A stretch of DNA of 35,681 nt from Desulfobacteraceae bacterium (lineage in GTDB: Bacteria > Desulfobacterota > Desulfobacteria > Desulfobacterales > JAABSP01), in NCBI GenBank assembly GCA_011389855.1, contig JAABTM010000019.1:1-35681 (forward strand), read 5' to 3'. This document shows, piece by piece, positions 5,354 to 23,963 of the stretch (within the stretch, counting starts at the first letter, position 1; every line of letters starts with the position of its first letter). A model generated the notes under the pieces. That model was not told the DNA's origin and made no database searches. It saw nothing but the letters and a program-made list of their open reading frames with translations. Both the position numbers and the translations under genes were made by a program.

Positions 5354-6847
5354 ATGATTGGCAAGAAACTGGGGACCGAACCCATCCAGCCGACCCCCCG
5401 GCTGCACGATTTCCCTCATGTCACCGACGAAACCGTCAACATCAAGCCCAAACAGCGGTTTCTCAGCGACCGTCAGGTGGCGAGGCTCCACGAAGCCGCC
5501 CTCAACCTGATGGAGACCACCGGGGTCAAGGTGACCCATCCCAAGGCCCGTGAGATCCTCCACGGCCACGGCTGCCATGTGGACGACAGCCGGGTCCGGA
5601 TACCCGGCTGGCTCGCGGAGCGGGCCATGCGGTTCGTCCCGCCCCAGGTGGTCTTCTACACCCGCCGCGGCAAGAGCGCGGTGGTGCTCAGGGAAGACGA
5701 CACCTACTACGGCCCCACGCTGGACGCCTACGATTACCTGGAACCCCTTACCCAGAACCGCCGGCGGTTCACCATCGACGACCTGAAGGTCACCGCCACC
5801 ATCGCCAACGCCTTGCCCAATTTCCACTGGACCATGACCATCGGCGTGGCGTCGGACGTGGACTCGGACGTGGCGGAGCGGACCACCGCCCGGACGGCGC
5901 TGACCTACTGCGAAAAGCCGCTGCTGTTCTGCACGTCGAGCCTCAAGGCACTGAAGGACATTTACCGGATGGCCGGCGTCATCGCCGGCGGGGAGGCGGC
6001 CCTGCTCATGCACCCCAACGTGGTGGTCTTCAATTCGCCCATTTCGCCGCTCTCCTTCGACGACGCCCTCATCGACCGGCTTTTGTTCACGGCGGAAAAG
6101 GGGTTGCCCCAGGTCTGCTATTCCGGGCCCCAGGCCGGGGCCACGGCGCCGGCCACCCTGGCCGGCACGGTGGTCCAGGGCGGCGTCGAATCGATGTTCG
6201 GCTGCATCCTGGCCCAGCTCGTCCGGCCCGGGGCGCCGTTCATCTACGGGGCCTTCGCCACCATCATGGACATGAAGAGCACGGTCTTTTCCTACGGCGC
6301 GCCCGAAATGAACCTGATGGCCTCGGCCATGGCCCAGATGGCGAATTTCTACAACGTCCCGTTCATGGGCATGTCCGGGTGCTCGGACGCCAAGTTCCCG
6401 GACCAGCAGGCCTCGGTGGAAGCCACCTTTTCGTGTCTGTGCTCTTCCATGAGCGGCGCCAACATGGTCCACGACAACGGGTGGCTCGACCGGTCGAACC
6501 TCGTATCGCCGGAATACATGGTGCTGGTCAACGAGATCATCGAAATGGTCAACCATTACATGGCGGGCATGAGGGTGGACGACGAACGCCTTGCCCTGGA
6601 CGTCATCGATAAAGTAGGACCGGGGGGCAATTTTCTCTCCCAGCCCCATACCCTCAAATATTTCCGGGAGGTCTGGTATTCCAAACTCTTCGACCGGGCC
6701 ACCATGTCCAAATGGGAGTCCAAGGGATCCAAGCGTTTCGAGCAGCGGCTCCAGGAGCACACCCAGTGGTACATGGAAAGAACGCCGGAACCCCTTCCCG
6801 ACAAGGTGGTGGATGAACTGGACCGACTGTCGGACGATTGGGAATAA
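5354..6847 (+). CDS. MttB-family methyltransferase homologue without pyrrolysine
   Basis: A 497-residue protein matching the trimethylamine methyltransferase (COG5598) family in length and layout, read with no in-frame stop. Family features include 'LHEAALNLMETTGVKVTHPKA' near residues 45-65, 'YYGPTLDAYDYL' near 119-130, and 'STVFSYGAPEMNLMASAMAQMANFY' followed by 'GMSGCSDAKFPDQQ' around 317-352. Archaeal MttB has pyrrolysine in this last segment. Here the equivalent position is a sense codon, apparently Cys343 by eye alignment. Non-Pyl relatives such as MtgB demethylate glycine betaine to dimethylglycine with a cobalamin protein as acceptor. No corrinoid protein or second methyltransferase is in this window. 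Start ATG 5354 follows CGGAGG. First gene of the run with ferredoxin, AOR and FAD oxidoreductase. Confidence 0.9.
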   Translation: MIGKKLGTEPIQPTPRLHDFPHVTDETVNIKPKQRFLSDRQVARLHEAALNLMETTGVKVTHPKAREILHGHGCHVDDSRVRIPGWLAERAMRFVPPQVVFYTRRGKSAVVLREDDTYYGPTLDAYDYLEPLTQNRRRFTIDDLKVTATIANALPNFHWTMTIGVASDVDSDVAERTTARTALTYCEKPLLFCTSSLKALKDIYRMAGVIAGGEAALLMHPNVVVFNSPISPLSFDDALIDRLLFTAEKGLPQVCYSGPQAGATAPATLAGTVVQGGVESMFGCILAQLVRPGAPFIYGAFATIMDMKSTVFSYGAPEMNLMASAMAQMANFYNVPFMGMSGCSDAKFPDQQASVEATFSCLCSSMSGANMVHDNGWLDRSNLVSPEYMVLVNEIIEMVNHYMAGMRVDDERLALDVIDKVGPGGNFLSQPHTLKYFREVWYSKLFDRATMSKWESKGSKRFEQRLQEHTQWYMERTPEPLPDKVVDELDRLSDDWE

Positions 6848-6861
6848 AGGAGGATTACCCC

Positions 6862-7269
6862 TTGCAACTTACAGCCATTCACGAAAACTGCTCCGGATGC
6901 CGCACCTGCCTCATGGCCTGCGGACTGGCGCGGTTCAAGGAAGTCAATCCGTCCCGGGCGGTTCTGCGCATCAACGGGCTGTTCCCCGCGCCGGGCGTCT
7001 ATCGCATCGATCTCTGCGACCAGTGCGGGGCCTGCGCCGACGCCTGCCCGGTAGAGGCCATCACGGAAACGGACGGCGTCTACACCATCGACGCGGACCT
7101 CTGCACCGAGTGTCTGCTCTGCGTGGAGGCCTGCCCCCACGGCGTGATGTTCATCCATCCGGCGGAAACCGTCCCCTCCAAGTGCAACATCTGCGGGGCC
7201 TGCGCCGAGGCCTGCCCCCGGGGGGCCATCGTTCTGACCGACGAATCGGAGAAAGCGAGGGCTGTATGA
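6862..7269 (+). CDS. Four-cluster ferredoxin, electron partner of the AOR
   Basis: A 135-residue protein starting at TTG 6862 behind TAAAGGAGG, 14 nt after the MttB-like stop. It contains four CxxCxxCxxxC motifs: 'CSGCRTCLMAC' (about residues 9-19), 'CDQCGACADACP' (52), 'CTECLLCVEACP' (77) and 'CNICGACAEACP' (98). It can therefore hold up to four [4Fe-4S] clusters. No signal or membrane segment, so it is cytoplasmic. It overlaps the AOR gene by ATGA, so the two are translationally coupled. The arrangement is like the small iron-sulfur subunits of multi-subunit AOR-family enzymes. It likely carries electrons from aldehyde oxidation to other redox partners. Confidence 0.9.
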   Translation: MQLTAIHENCSGCRTCLMACGLARFKEVNPSRAVLRINGLFPAPGVYRIDLCDQCGACADACPVEAITETDGVYTIDADLCTECLLCVEACPHGVMFIHPAETVPSKCNICGACAEACPRGAIVLTDESEKARAV

Positions 7270-9173
7270 CGCTTTATGGATATGCCGGACAGATCCTCCG
7301 GGTCGATTTGAGCGGCCCGGCAATCAAAAAAGAGACCCTGGACCCGGACCTGGCGGAAAATTACATCGGCGGACGCGGCTTCGTGGCCCGGATGCTCTGG
7401 GACGAAATCCCGCCGGGGACCGAACCGTTCGCGCCGGAGAACATGGTGGTGGTGGCCACCGGCCCCCTCACCGGCCATTACCTGCCCGGCAGCGGCAAGA
7501 CCCACTTCGGGACCAAATCCCCGGCTTCCGGCGGCTACGGCGACGGCAACATGGGCGGCCATTTCGGCCCGGCCCTCAAATACGCCGGCTACGACGCCAT
7601 GGTCCTGACCGGAAAGGCCGGGCGGCCCAGCTACCTGGTCATCGACGACGACCGGGTGGAGATCCGGGACGCCGCCTCCCTCTGGGGAAAAGGCGCCATC
7701 CAAACCGAGGTCGCCCTCAAAAAGGAACTCGGGGAGGATTTCGAGATCTGCACCATCGGGCCGGCGGCGGAAAATCTCGTCAGGTACGCCTGCATCTCCC
7801 ACGATTTCGGCCGTCAGTGCGGCCGGACCGGCATCGGAACGGTCTGGGGGTCTAAAAATTTAAAGGCGGTGGCCGTCCGGGGCCGGAAGCCCCTGCCGGT
7901 CTACGATTTCGACGCCGCAATGGAAGCAGGGAAACGGGCGTACGGGGATATTTACAAAAAGCCGGGCTTTACCGGATGGACCCCGGAAGGGACCGCCGGG
8001 ATCACCAATTTCGTCAACCAGGTGGGGGCCTTTCCCACCCGGAACTTCCAGACCTCCTGGGCCGCCCACCACGAGCAGATCAACGGCAAAAAGATCCTGG
8101 AACGCCTCAAGATCACCGACAAGGGGTGCTTCTGCTGCCCCATCCCCTGCGGGAAATACGGCAAGGTGGAAACGGCCCGGGGAACCGTTTACGTGGAAGG
8201 TCCGGAGTTCGAGACCATCGCCCTGTTCGGCGGCAACTGCGTTCTCCAGACCATCGAAGAAGTGGCCTGGGCCAACCAGGTCTGCGACGAACTGGGGCTC
8301 GACACCATATCCGGCGGCGCCGTGGCCGGATTCGCCATCGAGTGCTTTGAAAAGGGCCTGTTGACGGAGGAAGACTTCGGCCAACCGGTTCGATTCGGGG
8401 ATCTCGACTCGGTCCTCCACATCCTCGGTCTCATCGCCCGGCGGGAAAAGATCGGCGACGTGCTGGCCGAAGGGGTGGCCCGGGCCGCCCGGACCATCGG
8501 CAAGGGCGCCGAGGCCCTGGCGGTCCACGTCAAGGGGCTGGAATGGACCGGCTACGAATGCCGCAACGCGCCGGGCATGATGCTGGCCTACCTCACCGCG
8601 GACGTGGGCGCCCACCACAACCGGGCCTGGGTTCTGGGCAAGGACGTCACCGGCACGGACGCCGACGTCCACGCCCTCATCGAGGCCGGCGGATCGGGCG
8701 AGCGGATGGCCAAATCAGCGGTCCGGGGCAAGGCCCGGGGGGTCATCGACTCCCAGCACCTCCGGCCCATGTTCGACGTGCTGGGCACCTGCCGGCTCCA
8801 GATGATGGAACTGGGCTTCGAGGTGGCGCACTACGAGGAGCTGAGCGCCCTGATCACCGGCCGGAAACGGACCTGGGACGAACTGATCGCGGTGTCGGAG
8901 AAAATCTGGCACCTCACCCGGGCCTTTTCGGCCCGGGAGATCGACGGCTTCGGCCGGAAGATGGACATGCCCCCGCCCCGGCTGTGCCGGGAGGCGATCC
9001 TCGACGGTCCCAACCAGGGCCATTTCATCACCGAGGACGAGGTCAACATCATGCTGGACGAATACTACGCGGCCCGGGGCTGGAACGAGGACGGCATCCC
9101 CACCACGGCGACCCTGGAGCGCGTGGGCCTGGACGACGTGGCCCGAAACCTGAACCCCCATCAACCCCAATAA
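7266..9173 (+). CDS. Tungsten aldehyde:ferredoxin oxidoreductase (AOR family)
   Basis: A 635-residue AOR-family enzyme. The start is the ATG overlapping the ferredoxin stop. The N-terminal domain has 'NYIGGRGFVARMLW', 'ATGPLTGHYLPGSGKTHFGTKSP' and 'GDGNMGGHFGPALKYAGYD', which bind the bis-pterin tungsten cofactor. 'CFCCPIPC' gives C288-x2-C291-x3-C295, and C509 in 'LGTCRLQ' is the fourth [4Fe-4S] ligand expected in this family. Members oxidise aldehydes to acids, including formaldehyde in the FOR subgroup, and pass electrons to ferredoxin. Clustering with a methylamine methyltransferase homologue and an amine oxidoreductase suggests it may oxidise formaldehyde or another aldehyde released during demethylation. 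That substrate is inference. Other subgroups (tungsten benzoyl-CoA reductase, YdhV-like) remain possible. Confidence 0.93.
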   Translation: MTLYGYAGQILRVDLSGPAIKKETLDPDLAENYIGGRGFVARMLWDEIPPGTEPFAPENMVVVATGPLTGHYLPGSGKTHFGTKSPASGGYGDGNMGGHFGPALKYAGYDAMVLTGKAGRPSYLVIDDDRVEIRDAASLWGKGAIQTEVALKKELGEDFEICTIGPAAENLVRYACISHDFGRQCGRTGIGTVWGSKNLKAVAVRGRKPLPVYDFDAAMEAGKRAYGDIYKKPGFTGWTPEGTAGITNFVNQVGAFPTRNFQTSWAAHHEQINGKKILERLKITDKGCFCCPIPCGKYGKVETARGTVYVEGPEFETIALFGGNCVLQTIEEVAWANQVCDELGLDTISGGAVAGFAIECFEKGLLTEEDFGQPVRFGDLDSVLHILGLIARREKIGDVLAEGVARAARTIGKGAEALAVHVKGLEWTGYECRNAPGMMLAYLTADVGAHHNRAWVLGKDVTGTDADVHALIEAGGSGERMAKSAVRGKARGVIDSQHLRPMFDVLGTCRLQMMELGFEVAHYEELSALITGRKRTWDELIAVSEKIWHLTRAFSAREIDGFGRKMDMPPPRLCREAILDGPNQGHFITEDEVNIMLDEYYAARGWNEDGIPTTATLERVGLDDVARNLNPHQPQ

Positions 9174-9183
9174 GGAGGCCCCA

Positions 9184-10383
9184 ATGCGTAAAATCTACAT
9201 CCCGGACACCGCGGACACCACCGCCGACGCGGTGGTCATCGGCGGCGGCGTCGTCGGCGCGGCCACCGCCTACTGGCTCTCCAAAGCCGGGCTGGACACG
9301 GTCCTGGTGGAGGCCAAGGACGGCCTGGGCGAACTCACCACCGGGGCCTCCGCCGAATGCTTCCGGTGCCAGTTCACCGAACCGGCCATCGTGCCCCTGG
9401 CCAGGGAAAGCGTCGATTTCTTTGAAAACTTCCCGGAGCGGATCGGGTTGCCCGGCCACGAAATCCATCTCCATCAGCAGGGATACCTCTTCATCACCGA
9501 CAAGGAGGAGATGCTGCCGAACCTCCAGGCCGCCATAGAGGAACAGCATCGACTCGGGGTCGAAGGATCGGAATTTCTGAACCGGGACGAAGTCCGCAAA
9601 CGGTTCCCCTTTCTGTCGCCGTCGGTGGCCGGGGCCACCTTCCGGAACGCGGACGGCTGGCTCTCGGTCCACGAACTGGTCCAGGGATACGCCAAGGCGT
9701 CCACGGCCCGGTTCTTCGTCCGGACAAAGGTCATCGACGTGCTCACCGACAAAGGGGGCGTATCGGGGGTCAAGACCGACCGGGGCACGATTTCGACCCG
9801 CCACGTGGTCAACGCGGCCGGCCCCTTCGCCGGCGTCATCGGAAAAATGGTCGGGCTCGACCTGCCCCTGGAGCCGGTCCTCCGGCAGAAGGCTTTCGTG
9901 GAGTCGGACAAGATCCCCACGGAAGCCCCCTTCACGGTCAACCTGGTCAACGGCTCCTACTGGCGGCCCGAGGCCGGCGGCGCCCTGGTGGGATGGGTCA
10001 ATCCCGACGAGCCGGCCTCGGCGCCCCTGGAAAATCCCGTGGGAGACTGGGACTTCCCGGCCATGGCCCTGGACAAGGTCCGGGAGCTGACCCCCTTCTG
10101 GGACAGCATCATCGAGAACCTGAAGGCCAACGACATTTCCGTGTCCGCCGGACAGTACGTCTACACGCCGGACCAGCAGCCCATCATCGGCCCGGTGACG
10201 GAAGTCCCCGGGTTTCACCTCAACTGCGGCTACTGGATAGGCATCATGGTCTCCCCGGCCGTCGGCCGCCTCTGCGCCGACCTCGTCACCGGCGCCCGGG
10301 AGAACAAGGACAACCCCCTGCGGCTGAGCCGCTACAAGGAAGGCGCGGTGGACAAGGGGAGCAGTTTTTTGAGCGGACACTGA
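9184..10383 (+). CDS. FAD-dependent oxidoreductase of the DAO/sarcosine oxidase-beta family
   Basis: A 399-residue cytoplasmic flavoprotein from ATG 9184 with AAGGAGG upstream, 10 nt after the AOR gene. 'ADAVVIGGGVVGAATAYWLSK' (about residues 15-35) is the FAD-binding beta-alpha-beta with GxGxxG, and 'VLVEA' ends the second strand with the ribose-binding Glu. 'VVNAAGPFA' and the C-terminal 'VYTPDQQPIIGPV' plus 'LNCGYWIGIMVSPAVGRLCADLV' are typical of SoxB, DadA and dimethylglycine dehydrogenase-type DAO enzymes. They oxidise N-methyl or amino groups of glycine derivatives. In this cluster a dimethylglycine, sarcosine or other N-methyl compound is the natural guess, and would release formaldehyde for the neighbouring AOR. 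No covalent-flavin evidence was checked. Confidence 0.9.
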   Translation: MRKIYIPDTADTTADAVVIGGGVVGAATAYWLSKAGLDTVLVEAKDGLGELTTGASAECFRCQFTEPAIVPLARESVDFFENFPERIGLPGHEIHLHQQGYLFITDKEEMLPNLQAAIEEQHRLGVEGSEFLNRDEVRKRFPFLSPSVAGATFRNADGWLSVHELVQGYAKASTARFFVRTKVIDVLTDKGGVSGVKTDRGTISTRHVVNAAGPFAGVIGKMVGLDLPLEPVLRQKAFVESDKIPTEAPFTVNLVNGSYWRPEAGGALVGWVNPDEPASAPLENPVGDWDFPAMALDKVRELTPFWDSIIENLKANDISVSAGQYVYTPDQQPIIGPVTEVPGFHLNCGYWIGIMVSPAVGRLCADLVTGARENKDNPLRLSRYKEGAVDKGSSFLSGH

Positions 10384-10529: not shown

Positions 10530-10604
10530 GTGCGGATGTTTAGATCAATATGCTCGAATCATGGGCAATCGCCCCATTATGCAACCCAAACCACAGGAGG
10601 AACC

Positions 10605-11468
10605 ATGAAGAAACTGCTCGTTGTACTCACAGTTTGCGCCGCGATGGTCGTCGGCGTCATGCCCGCCCTTGCATCCAAAGGCAAGCTCACCCTGGTCTAT
10701 ACTGAGTGGGCCTGAGCGACCGCGAGCACGCACGTGCTCAAAGCCGCCTTGGAACAGGCTGGCTATGATGTGGAAACCCTGCCCGTGGCCGCAGCGGCCA
10801 TCTACCAGGCCCTGGCCACCGGCAACGCCGACGCCATGACCACCGCCTGGCTGCCGATCACCCACGCCGATTATATGAAGAAAGTGGGCGAGGATGTCGT
10901 CAACCTCGGCACCAACCTCAACGGCCCGGCCGTCCTGGGATGGGTGGTGCCCGACTATGTCGACATCGATTCGATCCCCGAGATGAAAGACCCCAAGATC
11001 GCCGACAAATTCAACAACAGGATCATCGGCATCGACCCGGGCGCCGGGATCATGCGCTACTCCGAAAAGGCCCTCAAAGCCTACGATCTGGAAGACGAGT
11101 ATGAGCTGATGGGAGGCAGCGGCGCCACCATGACCGGCGCCCTGAGCAACGCCATCAAGGCCGACGAATGGGTCGTGGTCACCGGATGGGCCCCCCATTG
11201 GAAGTTTGGGCGCTGGGACCTGAAAATCCTGGAAGACCCCAAGAAAACGCTGGGCGAACTGGAGCACGTAGACACCATCGTCCGCAAGGGTCTGAAAAAA
11301 GACATGCCCGAAGCCTACGCCATCATCGACCGGTTTGAATGGGACGATACGGACATCGCCCAGGTCATGGACTGGAACACCGCCAAAAACGCCGATCCGG
11401 ACGAGACCGCCAAGAAATGGGTGGCGCGGAACCCGGAGAAGGTAAACAAGTGGCTCACTGGTAAATAA
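10605..11468 (+). CDS. Glycine-betaine-type substrate-binding protein with in-frame TGA (probable selenoprotein)
   Basis: A 287-codon gene from ATG 10605 (CAGGAGG at 10594-10600). Residues 1-23 are a Sec signal peptide ending 'MPALA'. The mature part has OpuAC/ProX features: 'LVYTEWA' at the N-terminus, 'GNADAMTTAWLPITHADY', 'GIDPGAGIM' and 'VVVTGWAPHWKF', which in this family build the aromatic cage for quaternary amines. Codon 37 is TGA (10713-10715), and the same frame continues without change for 250 codons ('ATASTHVLKAALEQ'). From memory, relatives carry Cys in 'EWACA' at this place, so selenocysteine is the best reading. A hairpin follows the TGA. The alternative is a nonsense mutation in a Cys codon. 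Permease and ATPase genes are not in the window. It sits next to the MttB-like cluster, consistent with betaine uptake or sensing. Confidence 0.8.
10724..10739 (+). promoter_or_regulatory. Candidate bacterial SECIS hairpin
   Basis: Starting 9 nt after the TGA, GAGCAC (10724-10729) pairs perfectly with GTGCTC (10734-10739) around the tetraloop GCAC, inside the coding sequence. Bacterial SECIS elements are short hairpins just after the UGA with G at the start of the loop. This one agrees in position and loop G but is slightly closer to the UGA than the fdhF element and has no bulged U. Confidence 0.45.
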
Positions 11469-20626: not shown

Positions 20627-21649
20627 ATGAGACGAATTGCAGTGTTGGCGATGGTCCTTTGCCTAATGTCCGCCGGTCTGGCCAGTGCAAGAACCTACAA
20701 AATCGCCGTGGTGTCATGGGCCGGATTTTCACCCTCCCATGTCGCCGACGCCGAGGGCTTCTGGAAATCCGAAGGCGTGGATGTCAAACTGGTCACCACC
20801 ACCGCCCCGATGCATTTGACCATGCTGAAGGATCGGCTTGTGGACCTGACCTTCGACATGATCGGAACCGTCATTGGAGTCTTCCAGGAGGGAACGCCCG
20901 TCGCGATTGTGGCGGAGACGGGCTGGTCCCACGGCGGCGATAAAATTATCGTGAGAGAAGACCTCGACTTGTCGAAGCTCAAAAACCTTCCCATAGGCAT
21001 TTACTACGACCAACCCTCCGTGACTTTTTTTCTGGACCAATACCTGTCGACGATCGGCATCGCCATGTCGGACGCACGCGTCATCGAGATGGAACCATCC
21101 ACCCTGGCGGACAATTTCATCGCCGGACGCCTCGGCATTATCGTCAACTTCGATCCGGACGCCATCCGCGCGGAAAGACAGGGCAAAGGAAAGGTGGTCG
21201 CCACAAGCGCGACCTATGAAGGATCCATTCCGGAAGGCCTGATTGCCCTGGATGATGTGTTGCAATCCATCCCTCATGCCGATCTGGTCAAGATATTGAA
21301 AGGCTGGATCAGAGCCGCTGAATGGATTCAATCGCCCGACAACTGGGAAGCGTACGCGCAAATACTCAACGCCCGGGCTTTCAAGAACGATCCCCCCTAT
21401 CCGGAAAGCGACCTGAGAGCCATGGTGGACGCCGTCCGCATCCACGACCGCGAGAGGCTGCGGGAAAGAAACCGGACCGGCGGCGGGTTGCACGCCTACC
21501 TGACGCATCTCAAATCCTTTCTCGAAAAGAACGGCATGTTGGAAAAAGATTTCACCGCCGACATGATCTTTGACAATACCGCCGTTTTGAACGCACTCGG
21601 AGTCGAAGACGCCCCGGCCCCGTCCCGGACCCCCGCCGCCTCGGACTGA
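20627..21649 (+). CDS. Exported NMT1/NrtA-like substrate-binding protein
   Basis: A 340-residue protein from ATG 20627 (AAAAGGAG upstream). Residues 1-21 are a signal peptide ending 'GLASA'. The mature part has the NMT1/TauA/NrtA-type periplasmic binding fold: 'YKIAVVSWAGFSPSHVADAEGFWKSEGVDV' near residues 24-53, 'MLKDRLVDLTFDMIGTVIGVFQEG', 'LKNLPIGIYYDQPSVTFFLDQYL', and a helical C-terminus. No permease or ATPase is encoded beside it. It lies 64 nt before the chemoreceptor gene, so its likely job is to present a small ligand (nitrate-, sulfonate- or pyrimidine-like in other members) to the receptor rather than to import it. The downstream start of the MITE-like element lies just upstream and may have changed its promoter. 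Confidence 0.9.
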   Translation: MRRIAVLAMVLCLMSAGLASARTYKIAVVSWAGFSPSHVADAEGFWKSEGVDVKLVTTTAPMHLTMLKDRLVDLTFDMIGTVIGVFQEGTPVAIVAETGWSHGGDKIIVREDLDLSKLKNLPIGIYYDQPSVTFFLDQYLSTIGIAMSDARVIEMEPSTLADNFIAGRLGIIVNFDPDAIRAERQGKGKVVATSATYEGSIPEGLIALDDVLQSIPHADLVKILKGWIRAAEWIQSPDNWEAYAQILNARAFKNDPPYPESDLRAMVDAVRIHDRERLRERNRTGGGLHAYLTHLKSFLEKNGMLEKDFTADMIFDNTAVLNALGVEDAPAPSRTPAASD

Positions 21650-21713: not shown

Positions 21714-23963
21714 ATGGCCTTTAAATCCTTGCGAACGAAACTGATGGTGATCGTCAGCCTCTGCATGGTCCTTGCGATCGGCGCTCTGCTGGCGATCGGA
21801 GTGATGGCCGCGCGGAAAAACGGTGCATACATCGCGCAATCCTCGGGGGAAAGCGCCACCAAAGCCGCCGGAGAGATTATCCTGAAAAACGCCAAGGCCG
21901 TCTCGTTTGAAATCGACGCGGCCATGGAAGTCGCGCTGGACGCCGCCCGCACCATGGCGGACGTCTTCGCCGGCATCAAGGATCCGGACGTCAATCTGAG
22001 GATGGACCGGAAGCGCATCAACGGCATACTCAAAAGCCTTCTGACCAAAAACTCTACGTTTCTAGGCACCTATACCGCATGGGAGCCCGACGCCCTCGAC
22101 GGACTCGACGACATCTACAAGGGCACGGCCGGGCACGACGCAACGGGCCGTTTCATCCCCTACTGGAACCGGAACGCCGAAGGCAATGTCATCCAGGTTC
22201 CCCTGGAGGATTACGAAAATGAAGAAACCCACGAAAACGGCGTTCGGAAAGGCGCATATTACCTTCGGCCCCGGGAGCGGAAGAAGGAATGCGCTATCGA
22301 CCCTTATCCCTACCCGGTTCAGGGGAAAACGGTCTGGCTCGCCTCCCTCGTGGCTCCCATCATGGTCGGGGAGACGTTTTACGGCATCGCCGGCGTCGAT
22401 ATGCGCCTCGATTTTCTCCAATCCCTCGCGGCGGCCGCCAATAAAGGCATCTACGACGGCGTCGGCGACACGACGGTCATCAGCTACAACGGCATCATTG
22501 CCGCGTCCAGCGGCAAACCGGAACTGATCGGCAAGCACATGAAGCTGCTGATGCCGGATGGATGGGAAAAAAAACTGGCCCTTATGCGCAACGGGAAAGA
22601 ACAACTGGACATTACGGAAGCCTCGGCCGAAGCCATGACGCCGTTTCATCTGGGCAAGACGGACACCCCCTGGTCCGTGATCATCACGGTACCCAAAATC
22701 GCCGTATTTTCCCATGTCGAAGAGCAACTACAGGAGCTTGAACGTCGAAACCGTGAAAGCCTTGTCTACCAGGTCATCGCCGGCGTCGGCGTCCTTTTGC
22801 TGGCGTTGCTCATCTTCTGGCTCATGTCGGGGTTCATCGTCCGGCCCATCAACCAGGCCAAGGATCGATTAAAAGACATCGCCGAAGGCGAAGGGGATCT
22901 CACCGCCCGCCTGGATGCGACAAGCGAGGATGAAGTCGGCGATCTGGCCCGGTGGTTCAACGTCTTTATCGAAAACCACCAGAAGATGGTGGCCGACATC
23001 GTCGGCAATATCGAAACGCTCAACGCCGCCTCTTCGGACCTGAACGAACTCTCGGTCCGTTTGGCCTCGGGTTCCGAGGAGATGAGCGCCCAGTCCGACA
23101 ACGTGGCCGGGGCCACCGAACAGATGTCGGCCAGCATCAACGCCATGGCGTCGGCGGCCGAAGAGATGTCCGCCAACGCCAACAGCGTCTCGTCCACGGC
23201 CGAGGAACTCTCCATGAACATGAACGCGGTGGCGTCGTCCATCGAGGAGATGTCCATGGCCATCAAGGAGGTGGCCCAGACCGCCAAGGGCGGGGCCGAG
23301 ATCGCCGGCAAGGCCGCTGAGATGACCGATTCGGCCACTCAAACCATGAGCCTGCTGGGCGCCGCCGCCGGGGAGATCGGTCAGGTGACCACGGTGATCA
23401 AACGGATCGCCGAGCAGACCAACCTCCTGGCGTTGAACGCCACCATCGAGGCGGCCTCGGCCGGGGACGCCGGCAAGGGGTTCGCCGTGGTGGCCAACGA
23501 GATCAAGGAACTGGCCCGCCAGAGCGCCGGCGCGGCCGAGGACATCGGCAAGCGCATCGAGGGGGTTCAGTCCAACACGGAAGAAGCCGTCCGGGTGATT
23601 TCCGAGGTATCAGCCACCGTGGCCAACCTCAACGACGCCTCCACGGACATCACCAAATCCGTGGAGCAACAGACCGAAACGGCCAACGAGATCTCCGGCA
23701 ACGTCCAGCAGGCCAACACCGGCGTCAACAACATCGCCTCGGCCATCGCCGAAATCGCCAAGGGAACCGAGGATGTGGCCAAAAACGCCGGCGAGGCCGC
23801 CAAGGGGGTCAACGACGTCTCCATGAACATCCAGGGCGTGAGCAAGGCCGCGTCCGATTCCAATGCAGACGCCAAGCAGGTCCAGGCATCGGCCGAAAAA
23901 CTGGCCGGAGTGGCCGGGCTGTTGCGAGACATGGTGGGGAAATTCAAGATCAAGGATGAATGA
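21714..23963 (+). CDS. Methyl-accepting chemotaxis protein with dCache-type sensor
   Basis: A 749-residue chemoreceptor from ATG 21714 (GAAGGGAG upstream). TM1 is at about residues 10-32, a long periplasmic sensor at about 35-340, and TM2 at about 345-368, followed by HAMP (to about 425) and a signalling domain. The sensor has dCache-like features: '[15 protein letters not shown]', 'PYWNRN', '[29 protein letters not shown]' and 'NGIIAASSG'. The signalling tip '[38 protein letters not shown]' (about 562-600) is canonical and binds CheA and CheW. There is no C-terminal pentapeptide tether for CheR/CheB. Adjacent exported binding proteins and a betaine-type binding protein upstream suggest amine or binding-protein-mediated sensing, but the ligand is unproven. 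The stop overlaps the next gene's start. Confidence 0.95.

Follow-up and report, generated by a model that had tools for sequence, protein, structure and literature searches.

The window, i.e. the whole 35,681-nucleotide stretch of DNA that was analysed, contains a forward-strand gene (10,605-11,468) for an OpuAC-family substrate-binding protein of 287 residues that is predicted to carry selenocysteine (Sec) at the codon 37 UGA (10,713-10,715). This UGA aligns with the Cys of the nearest homologues and with Asp45 of the choline-binding protein ChoX. Judging from sequence and model comparisons, we put at roughly 0.8 the probability that the codon is decoded as Sec and that this residue contacts the ligand, a figure that leaves out any role for the selenolate.

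The gene and the codon 37 column

The gene is real. Its reading frame opens with ATG at 10,605, four nucleotides after an AGGAGG ribosome-binding site (10,595-10,600), and runs through the TGA at codon 37 for 250 further open codons up to TAA (11,466-11,468). The first 24 residues or so (10,605-10,676) appear to form a signal peptide ending in MPALA-S, the cleavage site being placed by eye, and the residues that flank the TGA are YTEWA before and ATASTH after it. The original prediction had described an otherwise intact gene with these same elements, and the sequence bears it out. It had also named an OpuAC-type protein; in agreement, the translation with the TGA read through matches PF04069 with E 3e-69 and 233.9 bits, against a gathering score of 21.2, over residues 27-274. 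The match covers the whole OpuAC domain, of which the TGA is the sole interruption. The AlphaFold2 model of the read-through protein has a mean pLDDT of 90.8, and the Trp residues of the family's aromatic cage (W35, W82 and W195/W199) are conserved.

Another species of the genus, Desulfobacteraceae MAG S20.Bin143 (JAABTD010000227.1; labelled G001, L020/L033), has TGA at this codon too. Its protein is 94% identical, while the DNA of the flanking segments is only 78-87% identical; a simple base-calling error is therefore excluded. Among 99 homologues, the codon 37 column holds Cys in 63 (TGC in 33, TGT in 30), Ser in 13, Asp in 11, Glu in 7, Gly in 2, Arg in 1 and TGA in 2, and never Trp. Thus the in-frame UGA falls in a column that is Cys or putative Sec in 65 of the 99, including nearly all of the nearest ones (52-60% identity), and the Sec pair groups with the Cys homologues in the tree (SH-aLRT 91%). 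The expectation that relatives have Cys here holds for close relatives and not for the family as a whole, where more distant members carry Ser, Asp or Glu. Sec37 would then have taken the place of an ancestral Cys. Searches of contigs from GTDB and of some 850 whole genomes, which cover part of the order and phylum and in which the peptide patterns of the contig scan were not built for TGA forms, gave no third homologue with TGA, so that the form is known from two closely related species of one genus, with no independent recurrence seen. Also, two Ser-type OpuAC homologues (L026 in G009 and L133 in G061) have an in-frame TAA, not TGA, in the matched stretch, and are possibly decayed copies or cases of alignment overrun.

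The binding pocket and the proposed role of residue 37

The closest structural matches are Borrelia ProX (3tmg, Z 35.9) and the betaine-bound OpuAC of Lactococcus lactis (3l6h), which has a like fold (Z 35.5, rmsd 1.7 over 254 residues, 44% identity). The OpuAC proteins of L. lactis and B. subtilis, both of PF04069, share with the window protein the Trp cage and the expected quaternary-amine ligand; the lactococcal cage is a three-Trp prism (PMC2861598). OpuAC, the glycine-betaine-binding domain of OpuA, has Ser where the window protein has U37, as the alignment with the lactococcal protein shows. Choline-bound ChoX (2reg) has the same fold (Z 30.5, rmsd 2.5 over 260 residues) but differs in having Asp in place of Sec and in sharing only 23% identity. 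In the alignment to ChoX W35 corresponds to Trp43, W82 to Trp90 and codon 37 to Asp45 (W43-T-D45 against W35-A-U37), and the match of W82 with Trp90 fixes the register. U37 follows W35, the first cage Trp, by two residues and lies at the N-terminus of helix 1 (residues 36-51 in the AlphaFold2 model); such a helix end favours a negatively charged side chain. As Asp45 of ChoX forms a salt bridge with the quaternary ammonium group of its ligand (PMC8371380), the proposal that the site lies beside the quaternary-amine pocket is strengthened, and residue 37 probably contacts the pocket.

Selenols, with a pKa near 5.2, are charged at neutral pH, so Sec could mimic the Asp or Glu of other branches while remaining similar to Cys in size. 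On this view, the product would be an exported protein of the OpuAC type that binds quaternary amines, and Sec37, as a selenolate, would offer a soft and charged contact to the cationic head of the ligand instead of being half of a thiol redox pair. Such a contact may tune how strongly or how selectively a betaine-like compound is bound. The reading that we prefer, tentatively, is that the selenolate serves as counter-charge to the ammonium head group. Its fuller version is unlikely as a whole: a selenolate that replaces Asp or Cys as direct counter-charge to the quaternary ammonium, in a non-redox, non-metal site of an orphan protein tied to methyl-group catabolism. Residue 37 is the only Cys or Sec of the mature protein, and 41 of the 63 Cys homologues likewise have just one Cys from the W-x-C motif onward, which speaks against a disulfide-type mechanism within the protein.

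A genuine Sec37, being a strong nucleophile, might instead have a redox role or capture its ligand covalently, the ligand being thiol-reactive, a metal or an organometalloid; a proposal of this kind exists for the Sao-type binding proteins. The Sec-containing binding proteins SaoX and SaoB are linked to metal and organometal chemistry (PMC13188914), and B. subtilis OpuAC was crystallised with arsenobetaine (5nxy). However, the protein lacks the second Cys that a redox pair within it would need, it retains the Trp cage of betaine binders, and no metal-resistance gene was recognised among the neighbours scanned, so that we regard capture as a doubtful explanation. It is also conceivable, with a still lower probability, that the Sec is real and represents a neutral swap for Cys in a selenium-using lineage, with ligand binding unchanged. 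The change from TGC or TGT to TGA takes one base, and the Sec machinery is common in this order (selB was present in 6/6 relatives tested). Nevertheless, the TGA was kept through the divergence of two species, together with a hairpin and a genomic context that are both new, as would be less expected from a neutral change.

Probable decoding of the UGA

As the original prediction called for, we looked for the selenocysteine machinery in the window's genome and found selA (E 2e-182), selB (E 3e-109), selD (E 6e-112) and tRNA-Sec (76.5 bits, above the gathering score). The congener genome also has selB. The UGA would thus be decoded by the genome's own SelA, SelB, SelD and tRNA-Sec, aided by the SECIS-like hairpin just 3' of it. 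selD carries an in-frame TGA of its own, in the GAGUASK loop (GAG-U-ASK; G000:C229:4145-5065, L014 and L108), being a second selenoprotein gene in this genome.

After the TGA the gene is under purifying selection, with a dN/dS between the two species of 0.033/0.187 = 0.18 over codons 38-284. The silent divergence is uneven: dS is 0.02 for codons 38-97 against 0.26 for codons 98-284, and 0.55 for the upstream FAD gene. A SECIS element would be shorter than this low-dS tract of some 60 codons, which may in part reflect recombination between the two species. Recombination is also possible for a run of 193 nt without mismatches between L001 and L020 (gene positions 97-290), which is too long to be explained by SECIS constraint by itself. 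In the next gene upstream, about 30% of third codon positions differ between the two species.

These results bear on whether the OpuAC gene is broken or truncated, the TGA then being a nonsense mutation or a sequencing error. The contigs are drafts, a single in-frame stop is present, and the expected permease and ATPase neighbours are missing. Against this, the second species has the TGA, the codons beyond it are under selection, no other lesion is found and the position of the stop coincides with the conserved Cys column; a random stop would need both to be TGA and to land on that one column. A broken gene is thus largely refuted and very improbable. Even less probable is a restart of translation downstream, for example at GTG 10,734, where a mechanical ORF for a cytoplasmic 244-residue protein does exist, or a stop at codon 37 that yields a regulatory short peptide. 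No ribosome site precedes this GTG, a restart would discard the signal peptide, strand 1 and the cage residue Trp35, and codons 1-36 are themselves conserved, with 1 nonsynonymous change between the two species. Finally, UGA is reassigned in some bacterial lineages, but a reassignment or leaky suppression that would insert Trp, Cys or Arg here is negligibly probable, given a complete Sec machinery and a column that is mostly Cys and never Trp, and given that UGA terminates 9 of the 23 window genes, of which only the OpuAC gene has an internal stop; the many neighbouring genes that end in UGA show that the codon has not been reassigned throughout the genome.

Taken together, the machinery, the congener and homologue column, the selection and the use of UGA as a genuine stop make sequencing error, pseudogene and code reassignment unlikely. 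None of the outcomes that the original prediction had named as refuting was observed. The reading of the TGA as selenocysteine is strongly supported, and we predict that codon 37 is very probably decoded in this way.

Just downstream lies a candidate bacterial SECIS apical hairpin (10,724-10,739, forward strand), GAGCAC-GCAC-GUGCUC, with 6 perfect base pairs and a G-first loop, which begins on the 9th base after the TGA, as originally described. An identical hairpin is found in the congener (2/2 Sec genes, which are not independent), while an equivalent one, defined as at least 6 Watson-Crick pairs with G in the first two loop bases at the same distance range, occurs in 0/63 Cys homologues. 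From the UGA to the loop the distance is 14 nt, slightly less than the 16-37 nt of the usual bacterial SECIS model. By chance, an equivalent hairpin arises in 1.2% of synonymous recodings and at 1.5% of the codon positions of neighbouring genes, and the fold energy of the region 3' of the UGA is unremarkable against shuffles (z about -0.6 to -1); for these reasons the hairpin alone is weak evidence, and it adds modest support for Sec decoding. A second hairpin (about 10,742-10,764) is present in the 71-nt fold.

Known relatives and genomic neighbourhood

The nearest known proteins are Cys-type OpuACs of Desulfobacterota, spirochaetes and methanogens (e.g. L034, L036 and L047), which are 47-60% identical and have W-x-C at the same place. 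They differ from the window gene in having Cys instead of Sec, in lying in opuAA-opuAB-opuAC operons and in being devoid of the G-loop hairpin. The protein falls short of the ChoX family model ABC_choline_bnd (TIGR03414), with 116.5 bits against a curated cut-off of 379. Sec was previously predicted in other exported ABC substrate-binding proteins, namely SaoX, SaoB and BtuF (PMC13188914), and these precedents temper the original view that such a protein is an odd location for Sec. They belong to other families (NF040735, NF040727 and cd01144, respectively): the NCBIfam models NF040735 and NF040727 did not match, and at E <= 0.001 only TIGR03414 and a ProX model did. A 2026 review that lists 119 families of prokaryotic selenoproteins (PMC13188914) includes neither OpuAC nor PF04069, and the deep-Sep paper makes no mention of betaine or of a substrate-binding protein. 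In those parts of the literature that were open to the search, no paper was found that joins selenocysteine to an OpuAC or glycine-betaine-binding protein, the sole co-mention being in a paper on an ergothioneine transporter. In computational terms, we would thus describe a Sec-containing variant of the known OpuAC family, so far from one genus.

Most known selenocysteines are in redox or metal sites, and a lone Sec in a betaine-binding pocket, if true, would widen the known uses of this residue. It would also connect selenium with the way in which anaerobic, likely sulfate-reducing, bacteria handle quaternary amines. The role in the pocket is directly testable because natural Cys, Ser, Asp and Glu versions exist. 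Annotation pipelines are expected to label genes of this kind as truncated or as pseudogenes.

The genomic context is shared in part by the two species. In both, the gene order is an aldehyde ferredoxin oxidoreductase (AFOR) family gene (7,266-9,173 in the window), a DAO-type FAD-dependent oxidoreductase gene immediately upstream of the Sec gene (9,184-10,383 in the window, where it has TGA as its stop), the Sec gene and then a response regulator/histidine kinase gene. Upstream of the AFOR and FAD genes, the window has GntR, MttB-family and ferredoxin genes, all of these neighbours serving here as context. The MttB-family (trimethylamine/quaternary-amine) methyltransferase gene (5,354-6,847; PF06253, E 2e-94) has no in-frame TAG and, like the genes above, is on the forward strand. 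The congener contig starts inside the AFOR gene, so the comparison of the two species covers the cluster from that gene onward; each of the two genomes has seven MTTB matches.

No ABC ATPase or permease gene adjoins the Sec gene in the window or the congener, whereas the Cys relatives examined mostly belong to opuAA-opuAB-opuAC operons or have a permease gene next to them, and the OpuAC of L. lactis is fused to its permease. Such an operon is a feature of context and is not required for membership in the OpuAC domain family. OpuAB homologues are encoded elsewhere, in the window's genome (G000:C311, 64%) and in the congener (G001:C194, beside a Ser-type paralogue), which makes a shared transporter possible. 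We consider it an even chance that the Sec protein either works with separately encoded OpuAA and OpuAB or takes part in catabolism alongside the MttB cluster next to it; it is the position of the genes that suggests the catabolic use. Elsewhere in the window's genome, two nearby OpuAC-like genes lie beside multi-TM proteins (G000:C449:25760-29257; L003, L005 and L008), and the L005 gene has Glu at the codon 37 column. Within the window, a second and unrelated substrate-binding protein gene, NMT1-like (20,627-21,649), is found just before a methyl-accepting chemotaxis-like gene (21,714-23,963), in a region with many two-component and chemotaxis-type genes.
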